Below are positions 30,513-40,770 of a stretch of DNA of 64,000 bases, one piece after another. How positions within the stretch are numbered: the first letter of the stretch is position 1; every line of letters starts with the position of its first letter. Under the pieces are notes generated by a model. That model ran no database searches. It saw only the letters and a list, made by a program, of their open reading frames with translations, and was not told where the DNA came from. A program made the translations under genes and the position numbers. This stretch comes from Nostoc sp. CENA543 (lineage in GTDB: Bacteria; Cyanobacteriota; Cyanobacteriia; Cyanobacteriales; Nostocaceae), in NCBI RefSeq assembly GCF_002896875.1, contig NZ_CP023278.1, positions 4,906,501 through 4,970,500 on the forward strand. The letters run 5' to 3'.

Positions 30513-30893
30513 TCAATCAATGTCGCCAAAATACTCTCGGATGCCGGAAATTTTCTCCCCTGTAATGTCGAAGGAAATGAGATTGCGGCTTTGATAGGGT
30601 TGCTCTCCTATAGTCCCTTGACTAGCAAATTCTAGGGTAACGGTAGTTTCATTGCTGGTGATGCGATCAGGGGGATGGAAGATGAGGCGATCGCCTGTTG
30701 CTGTGCGCGCTTGGAGTCTGGCAATTAGCTGCTGTTTATCTTCGTATGTAAAGCCTGTGTCTCGCTGCTTGCCTACCGGCAGCCAGAAAACTACATCATC
30801 TGCCAGCATATCGATGAAGGGCCGAAAATCCCCTGTTGCCCATCCTGTAGCTAAATTTTCAAAAGCTTGTTGCGCGATTGGAATGTTTGTCAC
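30513..30893 (-). CDS. SnoaL-like / NTF2-fold protein
   Basis: 126 residues with the NTF2-like cone pattern: AFENLATGWATGDFRPFIDM, LADDVVFWLPVG, and a last strand GEKISGIREYFGDID. Such proteins include ketosteroid isomerase-like enzymes and small-molecule binders; no specific substrate can be given. It has no close partner gene; repeat element B follows its stop codon. Confidence 0.8.
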   Translation of the reverse strand: MTNIPIAQQAFENLATGWATGDFRPFIDMLADDVVFWLPVGKQRDTGFTYEDKQQLIARLQARTATGDRLIFHPPDRITSNETTVTLEFASQGTIGEQPYQSRNLISFDITGEKISGIREYFGDID

Positions 30894-31638
30894 CTCTGTT
30901 CCCCTACCTACTCACGGCGATCGCATATTATAGCGGTTTGGAAATGGTACTTAGCTCAATATTTACTACTATGTTTTTCATCAAGCCATATTTTTTATTA
31001 CAGTTTGTAAATATTTTAGAAAAAAATGTAATCACGACTGCTTTTTTTCTATTTTTTTAGTGTTTGCAAATACATTCTCTGAATAAAAAAATCTATTTAC
31101 GCTCTTAATTATGAAAATTAAAGATTATTTTTCAGCACATTATTAGACAGTAAATTTATATCGAGTTATCGCATTTTTTAAATCAAATATTCATTGTATG
31201 TCCTGCCGTACAAGCATTTCCCGCTTTATATTTATATTATTAACAAATATATTTAGATTATTAAAAATTTTATTATTCTGAAAATAGAGATAATGTTTTT
31301 GTTTTTACTGCTATAAAAATTATCCTAAACATTTCTTAACAAAAATCCTATACGAAACAGTATATAAAAATATTTTGTAAGGGTTAAACACAAAACAAAG
31401 TCAATAAAAACTCAAAACATTAGAGAATTTATTGCTCTTGTTCATGACGGAAAAACTTCCAATATTGGAAAAATTGCCTAGTCTTTCTCGTCAAATTAAT
31501 GTGGTTGAGAAATTGAAATATTACTTAGTTAGACATGATGTTCTGTTTGATAAAAAGTAAAAGCTCAAGTGTTCAATTTCTGACTGCAACCCTCAATCAA
31601 TAAATTCCGCATTAATCAAAATTTAGGAGATTAAAACT
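30894..31638. other. AT-rich upstream region of the sulfur-poor cpc operon
   Basis: About 745 bases, strongly AT-rich, holding the promoter and leader of the cpcBACD operon starting at 31639. I cannot point to a defined binding site. The only open frame of note is a 38-codon ORF at 31444-31560. AGGAG lies 9 bases before the cpcB start. Confidence 0.6.
31444..31560 (+). CDS. Possible 38-residue leader peptide upstream of the sulfur-poor cpcB
   Basis: ATG 31444 to TAA 31558 encodes a peptide that begins MTEKLPILEKLPSLSRQINV and ends VRHDVLFDKK. It has no Met besides the start and no Cys, like the operon it precedes. No Shine-Dalgarno site is visible and the length is short, so it could be a chance frame. 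Confidence 0.3.
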   Translation: MTEKLPILEKLPSLSRQINVVEKLKYYLVRHDVLFDKK

Positions 31639-32160
31639 ATGGTGCAGGATGCTTTTTCCAGAGTTGTTTCCCAAGCTGACACCAGAGGAGACTATTTGAG
31701 CGATGGCCAGTTAGATGCTCTCATCGCTTTGGTAAAAGACGGTAACAAGCGTGTTGATGTTGTTAACCGGATTTCTAGCAACGCCTCTGCAATTGTTGCT
31801 AACGCAGCTCGTTCGTTGTTTGCTGAACAACCTCAACTGATTGCACCTGGTGGAAATGCTTACACCAGCCGCCGCGCAGCTGCTTGTGTGCGTGATTTGG
31901 AAATCATCCTTCGTTATGTCACCTACGCAATTTTTGCTGGGGATGCTAGCGTTCTCGATGACCGCGCCCTCAACGGATTACGGGAAACATATTTGGCTTT
32001 GGGAACTCCTGGGGCTTCCGTTGCTGTTGGTATTCAGAAGTTAAAAGAAGCTTCTATTGCTATTGTTAGCGACCCCAACGGAATTACTCGCGGTGATTGC
32101 AGCAATCTGATTGCTGAAGTTGCATCCTATTTCGATCGTGCTGCTGCCGCAGTAGCTTAA
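31639..32160 (+). CDS. cpcB: C-phycocyanin beta subunit, sulfur-poor isoform
   Basis: 173 residues, a complete beta phycocyanin. The bilin-binding cysteines are Cys83 and Cys154 (the Cys84 and Cys155 sites of the family). These are the only cysteines: the normal third Cys (Cys109 in the minus-strand copy) is Ala110 here. Met occurs only at the start, against seven Met in the other CpcB of this window. This is the signature of the phycocyanin that Calothrix PCC 7601 makes under sulfur limitation. First gene of cpcB-cpcA-cpcC-cpcD, with AGGAG upstream. Expression is expected when sulfate is scarce, by analogy only. Confidence 0.96.
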
Positions 32161-32271
32161 AACCGCACACACTAGACCTCTTGCATCAGAGTTTCATCAG
32201 ACTCAAACAGCGACTTTTGCAAGAAGTCTATTCCCACAAATTTTTTAAAAGCAATTAGGAGAAATCTTGCC

Positions 32272-32763
32272 ATGACAAAAACACCCTTAACTGAAGCAAT
32301 TGTTGCTGCTGATTCCCAAGGTCGTTTTTTAGGTAGCACCGAAATTCAAGTTGCTTTCGGTCGTTTCCGTCAAGCATCTGTTAGCTTAGAAGCAGCTAAA
32401 ACACTCTCTAAAAAAGCATCTAGCTTGGCTGAGGGTGCTGCTAATGCTGTTTACCAAAAGTTTCCCTACACCACCAACACCCCAGGCTCTAACTATGCTT
32501 CTTCCCAAACTGGGAAAGACAAGTGCGTTCGTGATATTGGCTATTATTTGCGGATTATCACTTACGGATTAGTAGTAGGTGGTACAGGCCCCATCGATGA
32601 TTATTTGATTGCCGGTTTAGCTGAAATCAACCGTACCTTTGAACTATCTCCCAGTTGGTACATTGAAGCTCTCAAATATATCAAAGCTAATCATGGTTTA
32701 ACTGGCGATCCTGCCGTGGAAGCTAATTCTTACATTGATTATGTCATCAATGCTTTAAGCTAA
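32272..32763 (+). CDS. cpcA: C-phycocyanin alpha subunit, sulfur-poor isoform
   Basis: 163 residues. The single bilin site is Cys85 in [13 protein letters not shown]. The second Cys of the normal alpha subunit (Cys98 in the minus-strand copy, ITYCLVV) is Gly99 here (ITYGLVV), and Met residues at two internal positions are replaced by Thr and Ile. The only Met is the initiator and the only Cys carries the bilin. TTAGGAGAAATC precedes the ATG by a few bases. It forms the alpha-beta monomer with the CpcB encoded 111 bases upstream. Confidence 0.96.
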
Positions 32764-33231
32764 TACCTTCCAGGGTCAATACAGCAGTGAGTGCTGAGTT
32801 AATTGACCATATAAGTTTTGCAGTTTTGTGTGACTAGGATGAGAAGTGAATTTGGTAATTATGCGATTGAGATGAAAAAGATTACCAGAGCATTTTGAGC
32901 CGTCTGTAATTTAGTTACACCAAAACTGAATGTTAAGTTTGCAAAAGCGTCGAGCATTTGCGTAGTAATTTGGAAAAGTTTTTAATACTGGATGTACACT
33001 GTGTTAGTTGTCAATTTTAATTGCCTACAATCTTTGTACAGAGAGCATTTATAACGTTTCAATTTATTACGCAAGGCTTTTTCCTAATCATTAAAAAACT
33101 TTTTAAATTGTTATCTAGTCATCGATAAAATAAGTTTCAACAAAAATTTTTGGATATTTTTGACACACCTTATCCATAGTTTAAAAACGGGCTTCTTAAC
33201 TACTAGCACCTTTGACAAGGAGAATATTGCA
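32764..33231. other. Intergenic region between cpcA and the rod linker gene
   Basis: About 470 bases, unusually long inside a cpc operon, with no gene I can support. Cyanobacterial cpc operons often have a processing or attenuation site after cpcA, but I see no strong hairpin here. Confidence 0.5.
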
Positions 33232-34098
33232 ATGGCTATTACGACAGCAGCATCTAAACTCGGCACTTCTGCATTTAGTAACGCTGCGGCGATTGAATTA
33301 CGTTCTAATGCGACTCAAGCAGAAATTAAACAAATAATAGCAGCTATTTATCGTCAAGTTTTAGGTAATGATTATTTACTACAATCGGAACGCTTGACCA
33401 GTTTAGAATCACTGCTGATTAATAGAAATATTACAGTCCAAGATTTTGTAAGACAGTTAGCAAAGTCTGATTTGTACAAGTCAAAGTTTTTTTCTAATAA
33501 CTTTCATAGCCGATTTACGGAACTCAATTATAAACATCTGCTTGGTCGCGCTCCCTATGATGAATCTGAGATTGCTGATCATCTAGATTTGTATCAAAGT
33601 CAAGGATATGAGGCTGATATTGATTCCTATATTGACTCTATCGAATATCAAAGTAATTTTGGGGACAATATAGTGCCTTATTATCGGGGATTCAGCACTC
33701 AATCTGGACAAAAAACTGTAGGCTTTACCAGGATTTTTCAACTTTATCGCGGTTATGCCAACAGCGATCGCTCCCAAATCACGGGTAAATCTGCGCGTTT
33801 AGCTAGTGAATTAGCCAAAAATACTGCGTCTCCAGTCATCGCGCCTGCGGGTAGTAACAATGGCTTTGCCTATCTTCCTTCCCCCAGAGGACAAACCCCC
33901 AGCACTGCATTTCAAGGCTCACAGGCGTTTGGTAGAGGCAGATTGTATCGTGTGGAAGTAGCCAGTATTTCTCAGCCAGGCTATCCCAAAGTGCGTCGTG
34001 TCAACCAAGCTGTAGTTATCCCCTACGAAGAACTATCTAATTATTTCCAACAAGTTCAGCGTCGCAATGGCAAAATTGCCAGCATTACACCGCTTTAA
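33232..34098 (+). CDS. cpcC: Phycobilisome rod linker, sulfur-poor isoform
   Basis: 288 residues from ATG 33232, chosen over an upstream ATG because AAGGAG lies at 33217-33222 and the product [15 protein letters not shown] matches CpcC N-termini. Residues 20-150 form the Pfam 00427 linker domain ([32 protein letters not shown]); about 235-288 form the CpcD-like domain ([20 protein letters not shown]). No Cys occurs and the only Met is the start, matching the sulfur-free design of the two subunits before it. It joins phycocyanin hexamers in the rod. Confidence 0.93.
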
Positions 34099-34106
34099 AG
34101 AACTAA

Positions 34107-34221
34107 GGGACTTCCAAATATGCAATCGCTGTGGTGGGCAGGGGTGCAGGGTGCAGGGTGCAGGGGGAAAAATCAAAATATTCTCTCTCAAAAATTGAAT
34201 CATTTATTTTCTGGAAGTCCC
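34107..34221. mobile_element. MITE-like element with 10-bp terminal inverted repeats, copy 2
   Basis: Perfect ends GGGACTTCCA and TGGAAGTCCC, flanked on both sides by TAA. The interior has GCAGGGTGCAGGG units. It is inserted between cpcC and cpcD of the sulfur-poor operon, 9 bases after the cpcC stop. Copy 1 is at 13531-13651. Confidence 0.85.
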
Positions 34222-34371
34222 TAATACCATTTTGGATTTTGGAATGTTTTACTGGTGAGCTTTCCAGAAATTCATTTGTCGCAATCATTTCCCAAATTGG
34301 TATAAACAAGGCAAAAAACACACAAGAAAGAATAAAAAACCTTAAGTCTCCTTTGTTGACAGGAAATCAAT

Positions 34372-34584
34372 ATGGTTTATCAGAATCGCAGTTTTCAGGT
34401 TGAAGTATCGGGTTGGCATCAAAATGAGGTGACAGACCAAAACAATTTTCCGATTCGTTCTAGTGGTAATGTGTTAATTACAATACCTTTCAGTCGGTTT
34501 AATCAAGAACTTCAACGGATTAATCGTTTGGGTGGCAAGGTTGTCAATATTAAACCCCTAACTTTGCAGATTGGTGAAAATTAG
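34372..34584 (+). CDS. cpcD: Small rod-capping linker CpcD, sulfur-poor isoform
   Basis: 70 residues, a stand-alone CpcD domain: FQVEVSGWHQNEVTDQNNFP and ITIPFSRFNQELQRINRLGG, ending IKPLTLQ. It caps the distal end of the phycocyanin rod. Met occurs only at the start and Cys is absent. The MITE between cpcC and this gene lengthens the gap to 273 bases, so coupling may be weakened. The gene converges on cpcF of the other cpc operon. Confidence 0.92.
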   Translation: MVYQNRSFQVEVSGWHQNEVTDQNNFPIRSSGNVLITIPFSRFNQELQRINRLGGKVVNIKPLTLQIGEN

Positions 34585-34788: not shown

Positions 34789-35607
34789 CTATTCTTCGGT
34801 ATGGTGAGCAATTGACCCTGCTAATTCTCGATAACGGCGCGGATCACCTTCTGCTAAGAGTAGTCTTTCTTGTCCTTTACGCTCATAAAGTTTATCCAGA
34901 ATCATTTGCCAATCGGTAGCAGATAGTGGCGAAGGTTGTTCTGTGATTTCTGGTGATTGTTTTGCTGTCTCGCTGTGAATTTGCTGTTGTGCCATGCCAG
35001 CACGCGCCCGGACTGCCCAACTGCTATCGTTGTTTAACATCTGCTCTAATTGGGCTTGAATTTGCGATCGCCATTCTGTATAACTAGGGGCAATGGCATT
35101 CGCTAGGGCTTGTAATCCCACAACCGCAGAGTAGCGTACCACCCATTCATCATCTTGCTGCGCCACAAATAGTAAAGCTTCTAATGCCTCTTCTTGGGCA
35201 ATTTCTAATAAATCTTCTGGAAACCAATGCCATTTCATCATTCCCAACCCCCTCGCGGCTGCCCGCCTCACACTTAAGGCAAAGTCGGCGGTGGCGACTC
35301 CTAGTAAGGTGACTAATCCCCTGGGATCACCAATACCGGCAAGAGCGCGAATTGCCCAGGCTCTGGCAGTGTAGTTGTGGCGATCAAGTTGCTCTAGGAG
35401 TGCGGGAACTGCTGGTTCTCCCAATAGAATTAATCCATCAACTGCGGCTACTGCTGCGCCTGGATTATTATAGCTGAGGGCTGCAATCAAGGTGGGAATT
35501 GCTCCTGCTTGTCGAGCCGCCGCCAAGTTCTGCACTGCTTCCAACAAACGACTAGAAGAGTCTGCGGCTTCTACAGCCCGAATTAAGGAGGAAAGATGAT
35601 CGGCCAT
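34789..35607 (-). CDS. cpcF: Phycocyanin alpha-subunit phycocyanobilin lyase, CpcF subunit
   Basis: 272 residues of HEAT repeats (PBS lyase type): GAAVAAVDGLILLGEPAVPA, YTARAWAIRALAGIGDPRG, ALSVRRAAARGLGMM, WAVRARAGMAQQQ. Together with CpcE it attaches phycocyanobilin to Cys84 of the alpha subunit. The HEAT part ends near residue 215; an additional 50-residue tail (DWQMILDKLYERKGQERLLL...) extends beyond compact CpcF proteins of about 200 residues. It is the last gene of cpcB-cpcA-cpcE-cpcF, 60 bases after cpcE. Confidence 0.9.
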   Translation of the reverse strand: MADHLSSLIRAVEAADSSSRLLEAVQNLAAARQAGAIPTLIAALSYNNPGAAVAAVDGLILLGEPAVPALLEQLDRHNYTARAWAIRALAGIGDPRGLVTLLGVATADFALSVRRAAARGLGMMKWHWFPEDLLEIAQEEALEALLFVAQQDDEWVVRYSAVVGLQALANAIAPSYTEWRSQIQAQLEQMLNNDSSWAVRARAGMAQQQIHSETAKQSPEITEQPSPLSATDWQMILDKLYERKGQERLLLAEGDPRRYRELAGSIAHHTEE

Positions 35608-35667: not shown

Positions 35668-36495
35668 TTACAACAATTCATCCATCAAGGTCATGACTTT
35701 GATTGCCCCTGGTGACAATTCTAGGGGTGTGGTGAATTTTAGTTGTGCTTCTAATACGCCTTTGAGGGAGATCAACTTGAGGCTATTTTCTGCTAGGGTT
35801 TGAGCGATCGCATCGGCTGCTGGCAAGTATCCTATTGCACCTAAATCTGCTAATACGGCGCGCCGCAGTTGCAAATCTTCGTTAGCCAGGGCTTGCACTA
35901 AGCGATCGCCATACTGACTCGCCAATTGCGGCTCTGGAGTCAGTTGATACATAGCACGGGCGGCAGCAAACTGCACGCGGGGAACAAAATGATCAAGAAA
36001 AGGCAAAATATCAGGAATCGCTTCCTGTGCGCCGAGAGTTCCCAAGGCTTCTAAAATTGCATCAAAAGGTTGAGCTAGTTGAGGCGGTTCTGGTGCGGGT
36101 AATGTACCAGGAACTTGATCACTAAGTAACTCGATTAATCTGGGAATACAAGATAAATCTCCCAACATTTCCAAGGATTGGGCGGCTGCTTCTCGGACGT
36201 AAAAATCAGAACATTCCAACGACCGAATCAAAGCTGGAACAGCTCGCTTGTCTCCTAATTTGCCTAAAGCTCTAGCTGCATTGCGTCGTAGAGGATAACC
36301 ACCTGCATCTGTGCGATCGTCCTCATCTTCTAAAGAGGCGATTAAGACATCAATTGCTGCTGGCTCATTCACCCGAAACCGTCCCAACCACCAAGCAGCA
36401 TAAACACGCAAGCCCAAATCCTCACCTTGCAGATTGGCGATCGCTTGTTCTACCGTTAATGAACCATCACTTTGAATTTCAGAGACTTCATCCAT
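35668..36495 (-). CDS. cpcE: Phycocyanin alpha-subunit phycocyanobilin lyase, CpcE subunit
   Basis: 275 residues of HEAT repeats: LGLRVYAAWWLGRFRVNEPA, YPLRRNAARALGKLGDKRA, FYVREAAAQSLEMLGDLSC and LQLRRAVLADLGAIGYLPA, with the characteristic DDRTDAGGYPLRRNA segment at about 60-74. It forms the heterodimeric lyase with CpcF. The cpcB-cpcA-cpcE-cpcF order without linker genes is that of the constitutive cpc1 operon of Calothrix PCC 7601. A repeat and a hairpin separate it from cpcA. Confidence 0.93.
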   Translation of the reverse strand: MDEVSEIQSDGSLTVEQAIANLQGEDLGLRVYAAWWLGRFRVNEPAAIDVLIASLEDEDDRTDAGGYPLRRNAARALGKLGDKRAVPALIRSLECSDFYVREAAAQSLEMLGDLSCIPRLIELLSDQVPGTLPAPEPPQLAQPFDAILEALGTLGAQEAIPDILPFLDHFVPRVQFAAARAMYQLTPEPQLASQYGDRLVQALANEDLQLRRAVLADLGAIGYLPAADAIAQTLAENSLKLISLKGVLEAQLKFTTPLELSPGAIKVMTLMDELL

Positions 36496-36730: not shown

Positions 36731-37219
36731 TTAGCTTAATGCGTTGATAGCGTAGTCGATGTAGGAGTTTGCTTCAACAGCAGGATCACCGCTCAAACCG
36801 TGGTTAGCTTTGATGTACTTGAGAGCTTCAATGTACCAGCTAGGAGACAAGTCGAAGGTGCGGTTGATTTCAGCAATACCACTGATGAGGTAGTCATCTA
36901 ATGGGCCTGTACCACCAACAACTAAGCAGTAGGTGATCATCCGCAAGTAGTAGCCGATGTCACGTACACACTTGTCTTTACCGGTTTGGGTAGAAGCGAA
37001 GTTAGGCCCTTGCATGGAGGTGGTGTAAGGGAATTTTTGGTAAACTGCGTTAGCAGCACCAGAAGCCAAGCTAGAAGCCTTTTCGGTCAATGCTTTAGCA
37101 GCTTGGATGCTAGCAGAAGCTTGACGGAAACGACCAAAAGCGATTTGAATTTCGGTGGAGCTGAGGAAACGGCCTTGGGAATCAGCAGCTGCTACTGCTT
37201 CGGTTAGAGGGGTTTTCAT
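36731..37219 (-). CDS. cpcA: C-phycocyanin alpha subunit (normal isoform)
   Basis: 162 residues. Cys84 in [13 protein letters not shown] carries the bilin; Cys98 in ITYCLVVGG is the usual second Cys. There are three Met. GGAGAG lies about 12 bases before the ATG. The protein differs from the plus-strand alpha subunit at many surface positions but keeps all chromophore contacts I can recognise. Second gene of cpcB-cpcA-cpcE-cpcF. Confidence 0.96.
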
Positions 37220-37312: not shown

Positions 37313-37831
37313 TTATGCAACTGCTGATGCAGCCTTATCAAAGTAGCTAGCTACTTCAGCCATCAATGCAGAGCAATCACCACGGGTAATACCATTGGTA
37401 TCACCTGCGATCGCCAATGCAGCATCCTTCATTTTTTGAACGCCAACTGCTACGGAAGCACCGGGAGTTCCCAAAGCCAAGTAGGTTTCTTTCAAACCGT
37501 TGAGGCAGCGATCGTCTAATACACTTGCGTCACCAGCGAAGATTGCGTAGGTGATGTAGCGTAAGATGATTTCCATGTCGCGCAAGCAAGCAGCCATACG
37601 ACGGCTTGTGTAAGCATTTCCACCAGGTGCGATCAATGCAGGCTGTTCTGCGAACAATGCACGAGCTGCATTTGCAACGATTGTAGAAGCATTGCTGGTG
37701 ATGCGGTTTACGGTGTCCATGCGCTTGTTGCCATCTGCAACCATTGCGCTCAGAGCATCTAGTTGGGAAGTGGTGAGATAGTCACCGCGTGCGTCAGCTT
37801 GGGAAACCACTTTTGCAAAAGCGTCGAACAT
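37313..37831 (-). CDS. cpcB: C-phycocyanin beta subunit (normal isoform)
   Basis: 172 residues with bilin-binding Cys82 and Cys153 and the free Cys109, and seven Met. Segments [20 protein letters not shown] and [16 protein letters not shown] are typical of CpcB. The conserved Asn of the N-methylation site region is in [14 protein letters not shown]. First gene of its operon, with GGAG before the ATG. It converges with the sulfur-poor operon 3 kb away. Confidence 0.96.
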
Positions 37832-38388: not shown

Positions 38389-39138
38389 TTACTCACTGGT
38401 TACGAGTAGTTTTCGTTCTAGGTCAAATAAGAAGCCATGAATATACTCTTCTGTCCATTCCGCACCGTAAAAGCGGGTAAACATTCCCCTGGCGGGGTCT
38501 TTCTCCGCCCGATAGCGTAAATAACTTAGCTGTGCCTGCTCAATATTCTTTAAAGACTGAGTATCGGTAATGGGTTCTGCTTGCTCTACAAAATCCAAAT
38601 AAGCCTGGAGATAGTCTTTAAATGCAGCAAAAACGTGAGTTTCTACAACTTCCGTTTGTTGGGGACGTGTCCAGAGAAACGCAGGCGAGAAAAAAGGTTG
38701 AGCTTCGGCGGGAAAGTCGCCTCCCCAGGGTAAATGTTGTTGATGTGCTTGAAAAATTGGCAGGATAGGCTGGGTATATTTCGCCTGATAGGTCGGTTCA
38801 TCCCGAAATAAAGGCTGCATATCCAAGGCAATCAAGTGTCCTCCGGGCAGAGTAACTAAATCTGCGCCAAAAAACGGCAAATCATAGTTTAAATGCGGGA
38901 AAATCACGAAATTTAACACTTGGAGGGATTTTCCTCCCTGCACATGAGCTGCACGAATTTGTCGAAGTTTAGGAGATTGATAGGCGTAGCTAGTCGTCAA
39001 GACTTCTTCTTGATGTTTACCTTTACCTACAGTTGCTTGCTTCGATTCAAAGCCGACAGGAATAGGATAAGGACGCAAATCCAAACGCTCCTGCAACAGC
39101 GCGATCGCATAATCTAAAAACGGCTGATAGAGAGTCAT
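38389..39138 (-). CDS. pebB: Phycoerythrobilin:ferredoxin oxidoreductase
   Basis: 249 residues from ATG 39138; the frame is open further to a TTG, but that part is ATTCAAA repeat sequence. It belongs to the ferredoxin-dependent bilin reductases. [20 protein letters not shown] and [11 protein letters not shown] (with the conserved Asp) match PebB, which turns 15,16-dihydrobiliverdin into phycoerythrobilin. Its tandem partner at 39235-39966 is PebA-like. The presence of both implies a phycoerythrin (or another PEB-bearing protein) outside this window. Confidence 0.88.
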
Positions 39139-39235
39139 ATTTAATTCAAAATTCAAAATTCAAAATTCAAAATTCAAAATGATTAATAACTAATGACTAA
39201 TGACTAATGACTATTGACTATTGACTATTGACTCT
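39128..39235. repeat. AAAATTC and GACTATT/GACTAAT tandem repeats between pebA and pebB
   Basis: Five ATTCAAA units followed by TGACTAATGACTAATGAC and TATTGACTATTGAC units. They fill almost the whole gap between pebA and pebB. Confidence 0.88.
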
Positions 39236-39966
39236 TATTTACCAACCTTAGCGGCTAAAGGCACAGCATCTTCAAACAAAAACTCATGTAAAAACCGTTC
39301 TGACCACTCATGACCAAAATAGCTGCTAAATAAACCAGAGGCGGGGTCACGGTCAGCACTGTATTGGTCATAATCCTTTTGAGCCTTGACAATCCTTTGA
39401 ATATCTGACTGATCACTTAGAGGCTCTGCGGCTTCTAGCATGTGCCAGTATAAATCCAGATAATCTTTGAAGGCGGCAAAGACCCGTGTTTTCACTGTTT
39501 CTGCATCGGTTTTAGCAAACAGCAGATATTTTGAGAAATACTGATTAGCATCATAAAACTTCATTTCCAAGTCTTGTGACAGGTCTGGATATTTCTCATG
39601 CAATGTCTGCAACGGCTGAATATATTTTTTTAGATAAGCTTCATCCTGAAATAAGGGCTGGAAATCCATCACAATTAGGTTTTTCACCTGACCAAAAGAC
39701 AGAAAGTCTATACCTAGTAAGGGTAAATCATAGTGGTGACTAGGATAAATCACACTATTCATAATTTGCGCGCTTGCGCCTGCATCAATGTATGTATAGC
39801 GAATTTTCCGCAACTCAGGACATTGATAACACCAGCTTTGGATGGTAGCAGGGTTTCTACCGCGATCGCTAACTTTATACTCTAGTCCTGCTGGAATTGG
39901 GCGACTCTGTAATGAAAACCGTTGCAAAAGCGATTTTTCTAGATGCTCAACAAAGCACTTATACAT
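39235..39966 (-). CDS. pebA: 15,16-dihydrobiliverdin:ferredoxin oxidoreductase
   Basis: 243 residues, ferredoxin-dependent bilin reductase family: PELRKIRYTYIDAGASAQIM, YPSHHYDLPLLGIDFLSFG with the central Asp, LIVMDFQPLFQDE, and the C-terminal DRDPASGLFSSYFGHEWSE. PebA reduces biliverdin at the 15,16 bond to give the substrate of PebB. I assign PebA and PebB by similarity to each family and by the usual pebA-pebB order. A CpcS/CpeS-type lyase gene lies upstream in the same direction. Confidence 0.88.
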   Translation of the reverse strand: MYKCFVEHLEKSLLQRFSLQSRPIPAGLEYKVSDRGRNPATIQSWCYQCPELRKIRYTYIDAGASAQIMNSVIYPSHHYDLPLLGIDFLSFGQVKNLIVMDFQPLFQDEAYLKKYIQPLQTLHEKYPDLSQDLEMKFYDANQYFSKYLLFAKTDAETVKTRVFAAFKDYLDLYWHMLEAAEPLSDQSDIQRIVKAQKDYDQYSADRDPASGLFSSYFGHEWSERFLHEFLFEDAVPLAAKVGK

Positions 39967-40182
39967 AAGAATTTATAGACTCATCTGCCTTAACCCATCA
40001 GAATAAAGGATTCCAGGACAGGTAGTCTCGAATACGTTAAACAAAGTAACGATCCTTAACGTGACCCATAGAGATATTGCCAAAACTTGGAGAACAGCCG
40101 ATTTTTGCTTTTGTTGTTCCCTGTTTCCCGTTCCCTTACAAACTTTATAATTCCCATTCCCCATTCCCATTGTCTAGATAGT

Positions 40183-40770
40183 TCACACTGATGCTCTAGA
40201 CAAATTGTGTTGCATCATGGTTGCTAAATTCGCATCAGTTAAATAGCGGCGTTCGGAGCAGTATGTCATTAAATAGACACCGTTCATCATCCGCACGGTA
40301 CTAACACGCACGCGGAAATCATCCGTCATAAACCAACAGCGTTCTTGTCCTTGGTTACTCTCATACTCAGTATCGATAGTTAAAATCCCATCTTTACCAA
40401 ACCAGTAGCGACTAACCACAGGTATCCTTTCTACATAGCCTTGATTACGAAGTAATTTACCTGATGTGCCAGTTTCGTCATCAGGTACATCTACCAGTAC
40501 AGCTGCATGATCAGGATTGGGTTCTCGGTCATCTTCATGTTCTTGCCACATGAAGCTAGCTCCACCGTTGGCTTTTGTAGGATCAATACCTTGCTGTTCA
40601 CAAATGGCTTGAACTCGCGGGTCATCAACTGTAATCACGCCTACGTAAAGCTTTGATTCTCCCGACTGATCCGCCACCGTATCAAAGTGATGTACTGTAC
40701 GTTGTGTAAACCAGACCCCTTCACTCTTACGAAAGAAGTCCATCATATTCATTGGTGGTAAAAATGGCAT
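40183..40770 (-). CDS. CpcS/CpeS-type phycobilin lyase
   Basis: 195 residues with the lipocalin-like lyase pattern: MMDFFRKSEGVWFTQRTVHH at the start, YVERIPVVSRYWFGKDGILT in the middle, and RVRVSTVRMMNGVYLMTYCSE then RRYL near the end. CpcS/CpeS lyases attach bilins to Cys84-type sites of beta subunits and allophycocyanin; type III members work on several subunits, and CpeS members prefer phycoerythrobilin. Being upstream of pebA and pebB, a role with PEB is possible. The start may be six codons later (ATG 40752); no Shine-Dalgarno site decides it. Confidence 0.83.
   Translation of the reverse strand: MPFLPPMNMMDFFRKSEGVWFTQRTVHHFDTVADQSGESKLYVGVITVDDPRVQAICEQQGIDPTKANGGASFMWQEHEDDREPNPDHAAVLVDVPDDETGTSGKLLRNQGYVERIPVVSRYWFGKDGILTIDTEYESNQGQERCWFMTDDFRVRVSTVRMMNGVYLMTYCSERRYLTDANLATMMQHNLSRASV

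Follow-up and report, generated by a model that had tools for sequence, protein, structure and literature searches.

Phycocyanin 3 (PC3) is a textbook case of atomic economy in proteins. It was reportedly described by Mazel and Marliere in 1989 (Nature 341:245) and by Gutu et al. in 2011 (J Bacteriol 193:1449) from the cpc3 operon of Calothrix (Tolypothrix, Fremyella) PCC 7601, whose phycocyanin operons we take to be laid out as cpc1 = BAEF, cpc2 = BAHID and cpc3 = cpcB3A3H3I3D3, with the cpc3 linkers presumably also purged of sulfur amino acids. Phycocyanin is among the most abundant cyanobacterial proteins, and removal of its sulfur is therefore a large saving. Here we describe the operon cpcB3A3C3D3 of Nostoc sp. 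CENA543, which lies in a window of 64,000 nucleotides (the whole stretch of DNA that was analysed; chromosome C1:4906501-4970500 of a 7.2 Mb genome). Judged by its sequence, this is a sulfur-sparing phycocyanin operon of the PC3 type, a kind already known from PCC 7601. Passages of PMC4424289, and of a review, describe how PCC 7601 acclimates to low sulfate with antenna proteins that are poor in sulfur amino acids; the 1989 and 2011 papers are cited in passages of PMC4424289, and the latter also in a passage of PMC12016511.

By description, the locus resembles the PCC 7601 operon in being an extra phycocyanin operon, linkers included, that is purged of methionine (Met) and cysteine (Cys) and accompanies normal ones. 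The genome carries three cpcBA loci, namely cpc1 (cpcB1A1EF, minus strand, in the window), cpc2 (cpcB2A2H2I2D2, from C1:3835806 onward) and cpc3, a set that matches the layout we presume for PCC 7601. Unlike the cpc3 of that strain, the operon lacks cpcH3, so that one rod linker (CpcC3) plus CpcD3 stand where the presumed B3A3H3I3D3 layout has two rod linkers, and it faces cpc1, with 204 bases measured to the cpcF stop (about 200 in a preliminary description made from the sequence). This convergent arrangement, which had been stressed there, is real and also occurs in a congener (L045) and in genome G072 (L058).

CpcB3, CpcA3, CpcC3 and CpcD3 match phycobilisome, linker and CpcD families. Counts in all four proteins bear out the earlier claim that each contains only its start Met, with Cys confined to the three bilin sites, although together they comprise 694 residues and not the 594 first given. 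We hereafter call a CpcB and CpcA pair sulfur-free (S-free) if it has no internal Met and Cys at the bilin sites only. The linkers CpcC3 and CpcD3 are purged along with the pair (no Cys, no internal Met), as the preliminary description had emphasized, but this is not special to the strain, as close orthologues are purged likewise. The seven and three Met and the free Cys reported for the normal CpcB1 and CpcA1 were found again, as was the replacement of the free Cys by Ala and Gly (CpcB1 Cys109 by Ala110, CpcA1 Cys98 by Gly99). CpcB1 and CpcB2 each contain 6 internal Met and 3 Cys; among the other phycobiliprotein genes of the genome, which we take from their sequences to be cpeBA and genes for allophycocyanin subunits, the cpeB-like protein has 5 internal Met and 6 Cys and the allophycocyanin-like subunits 1-3 internal Met. 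Comparison of the Met and Cys content of the genome's cpc copies thus shows that the phycobiliproteins of the strain are not equally Met-poor, because the other subunits retain 1-6 internal Met, and this supports the identification as PC3-type. The lyase-like genes beside the cpc1 pair, presumably cpcE and cpcF, belong to cpc1 and are not purged.

We consider it highly probable that the operon encodes PC3 as a dedicated sulfur-sparing phycocyanin, which would replace PC1 and PC2 in the rods when sulfate is short. Rods would then be built from CpcB3/CpcA3 with CpcC3/CpcD3 instead of the sulfur-rich PC1/PC2, and an S-free antenna set would very probably let the cell keep harvesting light under sulfur scarcity. 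By Met plus Cys count, an alpha-beta protomer contains 15 sulfur atoms in PC1 versus 5 in PC3. Removal of the start Met would leave 3, the bilin cysteines alone, and should be possible because position 2 is Val in CpcB3 and Thr in CpcA3. The bilin lyase CpcE/F would be borrowed from cpc1 and is presumed to serve PC3 too, because a lyase is needed in catalytic amounts only. For this strain we infer induction by sulfur limitation, as well as start-Met removal, phycobilisome assembly and lyase sharing.

Table 1. Coordinates in the window of the cpc3 operon, its upstream elements and the facing cpc1 operon.
Feature	Position	Strand	Details
Candidate distal regulatory element TTACAGTTTGTAAA-N15-TGTAAT	30998-31032 (-641 to -607)	+	aligned block, PC3 operons
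Core cpc promoter-like element	31359-31387 (~264 bases upstream)	+	
cpcB3, S-free phycocyanin beta	31639-32160	+	173 amino acids; Met1 only; Cys83, Cys154
cpcA3, S-free phycocyanin alpha	32272-32763	+	163 amino acids; Met1 only; Cys85
A3-C3 intergenic stretch without cpcH3	32764-33231	+	
cpcC3, rod linker	33232-34098	+	288 amino acids; PBS_linker_poly and CpcD domains; no Cys, no internal Met
cpcD3, rod-capping linker	34372-34584	+	70 amino acids; no Cys, no internal Met
cpcF of cpc1, HEAT-repeat lyase subunit	34789-35607	-	5 internal Met
cpcE of cpc1	35668-36495	-	4 internal Met, 2 Cys
cpcA1, normal phycocyanin alpha	36731-37219	-	Met 1, 69, 94; Cys 84, 98
cpcB1, normal phycocyanin beta	37313-37831	-	Met 1, 30, 38, 79, 86, 134, 157; Cys 82, 109, 153

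Phycobilisome linkers are poor in Met and Cys in any case (H2 and I2 have 2 internal Met each and no Cys), and the lack of these residues could be drift or chance in small proteins, but the counts leave this explanation a negligible probability. At the Met rate of the other open reading frames (ORFs) of the window, ~10.3 internal Met were expected in the 694 residues and 0 were observed (P(0) = 3e-5), and B, A and C together differed from five paralogues of the same genome (CpcB1, CpcA1, CpcB2, CpcA2 and the rod linker I2; 17 Met in 958 residues) with a Fisher P = 2e-4. Not one internal Met occurs in the B, A and C proteins of 13 distinct PC3 operons, against 1724 Ile, Leu and Val residues, and CpcD likewise has 0 in 10 of the 13, i.e. 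in all where CpcD was found. The retained bilin cysteines also argue against drift. So do changes of the S-free state at least 3-4 times on the tree (on a 63-row tree a minimum of 4, with 3 forced by starred branches), which we read as separate, repeated gains, although the count alone is compatible with losses too.

A search for CpcC3 across the family returned 14 of 217 genomes at 80-100% identity, the next match being at 73%. These genomes belong to the genus of the window (2), g7 (6) and g8 (6), and the orthologue strains include Trichormus sp. M33_DOE_039, Calothrix brevissima NIES-22, Nostoc linckia FACHB-104 and Brasilonema/Scytonema strains; in three g7/g8 genomes (G017, G018 and G023) the same family-wide search did not find a PC3-type CpcC. 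The window operon falls in one clade with the S-free operons of C. brevissima NIES-22, N. linckia FACHB-104 and Scytonema tolypothrichoides. Among the close orthologues, CpcC3 has no internal Met and no Cys in 13 of 13, CpcB3 and CpcA3 are purged in all 12 whose contig reaches both genes, and CpcD3 is purged in all 11 where it was found.

All 13 close orthologues carry cpcH3, a second rod linker gene between A3 and C3, and its loss is peculiar to this strain among the 14. CpcH3 is free of Met and Cys past its start Met in the six g7 orthologues and has 1 internal Met in the other seven. A tblastn search of the A3-C3 spacer with the congener's H3 found no remnant of the gene; the spacer aligns with the congener's A3-H3 spacer for ~350 bases (to 33113) and then diverges. 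The operon might therefore be a decaying remnant, in which CpcC3 and CpcD3 are unable to build normal rods, and the C3-D3 spacer of 273 bases with short repeats would fit such decay. We regard this as very improbable, given that the four remaining frames are intact and near those of the congener (98% identity for CpcB3, 98% for CpcA3 and 91% for CpcC3), that purging is still complete, and that G072 retains an S-free B3A3C3 although it has neither H nor D. The repeats in the C3-D3 spacer (34099-34371) form a short run of the GTGCAGG type.

The search was widened to the order (388 genomes) and, with a profile, to 386 genomes of the phylum, where eight genomes scored at least 349 bits and the next 334. 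Members outside the family include G494 and G482 (f8), G419 (f18) and G578 (f38, in another order), and those within the family but outside the close group are G062 and G065 (g19). A further group, g112, was taken to be Microcystis because its normal CpcB shares 98-100% identity with the one of Microcystis viridis FACHB-1342 (8 genomes compared). All 8 compared g112 genomes have an S-free cpcBA pair in addition to a normal cpc operon; in the g112 genomes G423 and G440 the profile search found one CpcB each, at normal-type score. On the tree, the window operon, g112, f18, f38 and g19 form one clade with support of 93/98, slightly under the program's starred level, and 18 of 18 rows in it lack internal Met. 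The contig of L273 holds the beta subunit only, and L274 retains one extra Cys.

Neighbouring genes were read and scanned for sulfur gene families, and ten chosen proteins per library were named. Sulfur genes adjoin the S-free operon in four of the six lineages outside the close relatives (in g112, G419, G578 and g19, with G494 and G482 the other two) and, by the same scan, in 0 of 69 control loci (>=9 kb, around CpcC-like linkers; 68 with CpcB, L134 without); since the sulfur gene families were picked after being seen near PC3 loci, this contrast is a strong lead and not a planned test. The g112 pair, which shares its clade and the presence of a normal cpc operon in the genome with the window operon, differs from it in having adjacent sulfur genes and no linker genes found within 7.5 kb. 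It lies between cysteine synthase A (cysK, TIGR01139, above cut-off) and a two-rhodanese-domain protein, with a Crp-type regulator 3-4 kb away and, in 3 of the 5 g112 loci with long enough flanks, a sulfate-binding protein 2.6-3.1 kb further. These sulfate-binding proteins (L334 12849-13931, L336 4314-5396 and L344 12842-13924) themselves have no internal Met and no Cys, and are a second candidate for sulfur economy. In G419 the operon adjoins a sulfate-binding protein-cysT-cysW-cysA cluster (all above TIGR cut-offs), with a LysR-type regulator on the opposite side; the G578 operon cpcB3A3C3 and a cysteine synthase A gene face each other, and genes for a sulfate-binding protein, cysT and cysW (the last two by BLAST) lie ~5-8 kb away; and g19 has, ~3 kb off, a protein related to the g112 rhodanese protein (64-65% identity, BLAST only). 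Such neighbours of clade members in other cyanobacteria strengthen the case for a putative sulfur role of the clade.

S-free pairs also occur in many main operons of Nostoc and Desmonostoc, which are laid out as cpcB-A-H-C-D-E-F. In the Nostoc genus g38, 52 of 53 genomes gave a CpcB match. Reading the operons of all 52 showed an S-free CpcB and CpcA in 34, a single Met in 1 and an intermediate state in 17; CpcH and CpcC likewise lack internal Met in 32 of the 34 S-free operons. These operons are purged at the same sites as PC3, keep the same bilin cysteines and have permissive residues at position 2; they differ in that their CpcB is usually the sole one found in the genome, cpcE/F are attached, CpcD is not purged and the origin is separate. 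The window operon has no attached cpcE/F, is accompanied by other phycocyanins and falls in a different clade. The structure entry PDB 6jpr_B is a beta subunit close to the Nostoc S-free type, whose 171 aligned residues include no Met and no Cys other than the two at bilin sites. One Nostoc CpcB, that of G126 (L217, 1819 onward), is otherwise S-free with a single Met, perhaps a reversion.

Trees were built after removing every column with Met or non-bilin Cys in any row, and the PC3 and Nostoc groups are separate on these trees. In a set of 68 operons (B+A+H+C), PC3 has support of 100/100; one origin of all S-free phycocyanin, tried as a single S-free clade, was rejected there by the approximately unbiased (AU) test (P = 0.00036) but not in the earlier set of 95 operons (B+A+C, without CpcH; P = 0.38), the groups for both tests having been named after the trees were seen. 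The replacement residues of PC3 versus Nostoc are Val versus Ala/Thr at beta 39, Thr/Leu versus Gln at alpha 70 and Phe versus Leu/Ile at CpcH 169; the two groups mostly differ at beta 158 and CpcH 232 too, and share replacements at B80, B87, B110, B135 and other sites. A purging of Nostoc phycocyanin separate from that of the PC3 clade, as these comparisons suggest, is apparently new. Two loci, L318 of a congener of the window and L326 of G073, carry an S-free cpcB-cpcA-cpcC of another main-operon type (cpcC read partly) and possibly represent one or two more origins of purging.

Methionine aminopeptidase removes the start Met when position 2 is occupied by one of a set of small residues. We counted G, A, S, T, C, P and V as permissive, with starts set by script to the Met nearest the homologous start. 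Among 142 distinct CpcB and CpcA pairs, position 2 is permissive in both subunits in 48 of the 48 without internal Met versus 8 of the 94 others, counts that are not independent trials because the rows are related. Most normal pairs start with ML/MF and MK. S-free subunits should thus lose the start Met, whereas most normal ones should retain it. A permissive N-terminus as a strict marker of the S-free state was ruled out by the 8 other pairs. Passages on mass spectrometry agree with this for normal phycocyanin: the alpha subunit has no assigned loss of the start Met, and the beta subunit 0-1 losses in one paper (PMC13022049, PMC9542875).

Two upstream blocks, near -264 and at -641, are conserved in core PC3 operons. 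The -641 block is a candidate operator. It aligns between PC3 operons from four genera (clearly in g1, g7 and g23, less so in g8), and its exact composite occurs once in the genome. The -264 element was ruled out as PC3-specific, and hence as sulfur-specific, because some other cpc operons have similar elements 259-290 bases upstream (among the best 8 of 74 listed). By eye, the ORF list held no leader ORF common to several genera. Words common to distant PC3 upstream regions were only AT-rich or in the ribosome-binding region (no shuffle control), an element common with the sulfate-binding-protein loci was not seen in the one upstream region read, by eye only, and scans for sigma-70 promoters and terminators gave no more than shuffles.

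Besides the choice of sulfur gene families after the fact, several results weigh against a dedicated sulfur-sparing role. The scan found no sulfur gene of the searched kinds within the 64 kb of the window or at the 13 further core-clade loci (one of just 6 kb), nor at G494 or at G482, where the contig ends soon after cpcB. Neither the window nor the stretch 30850-31660 gave an Rfam match to a riboswitch or another known RNA, 8 aligned leaders showed no consensus structure, and sulfur operator dyads common with distant PC3 genes occurred in no more lineages than in shuffles. The loss of cpcH3 could mean shorter rods or decay. Moreover, the S-free CpcB is the only one found in 31 of the 34 S-free g38 genomes (a search at E <= 1e-60, mostly of draft assemblies, gave one further CpcB each for G119, G120 and G129), and S-free phycocyanin alone is therefore no proof of stress induction, being the sole CpcB found in 31 of all 52 g38 genomes.

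The last of these points would allow a standing antenna, i.e. low-sulfur phycocyanin made constantly or on another signal, such as light colour or oxidative stress, with economy or resistance to oxidation as a standing benefit (Met and Cys are oxidation targets). Such an antenna would also fit the lack of searched sulfur genes near the window operon and the core promoter-like element shared with some other cpc operons. We nevertheless think it unlikely here. The two normal phycocyanins kept in this genome favour a conditional role, sulfur genes adjoin distant members of its clade, and PCC 7601 is reported, in the passages cited above, to make depleted antennae in low sulfate.

Beyond the probable conditional sulfur-sparing role of this operon, we lean, with some reserve, towards a broader reading in which PC3 would be an old sulfur-regulon antenna. 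One S-free lineage would extend over two orders, embedded in Microcystis-like genomes with cysK, a rhodanese gene and often a Met- and Cys-free sulfate-binding protein, while purging would have been repeated in main operons of the Nostoc and Anabaena types, many Nostoc having S-free phycocyanin only; all S-free pairs read have N-termini that would release the start Met. What appears to be new is how widely the clade extends, the sulfur genes near its members, the recurrence of purging, with an S-free CpcB as the only one found in many Nostoc, and the pattern at the start Met. Among the literature matches listed (titles, abstract starts and passages) there was no report of S-free phycocyanin in Nostoc or Microcystis or of the position-2 pattern. 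The survey yields a comparative system that spans an extra S-free copy in one clade, many Nostoc with S-free phycocyanin alone, graded intermediates between these and repeated state changes. It also points to sulfur-linked antenna genes in Microcystis-like bloom formers, and warns against taking S-free phycocyanin by itself as evidence for stress induction.

On the same strand as cpc1 and upstream of it, 38389-40770 (minus strand) holds two genes for ferredoxin-dependent bilin reductases and one for a CpeS-like lyase, so that the cpc1/cpc3 pair is part of a cluster of pigment genes. L009 12749-13330 (minus strand), downstream of the cpc2 operon, is a phycobiliprotein-like ORF of 193 amino acids. 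In another family (f41), the 2.6 Mb genome G808 has six tandem CpcB matches at C1:532202-544902, with a constant spacing of 2437 bases.

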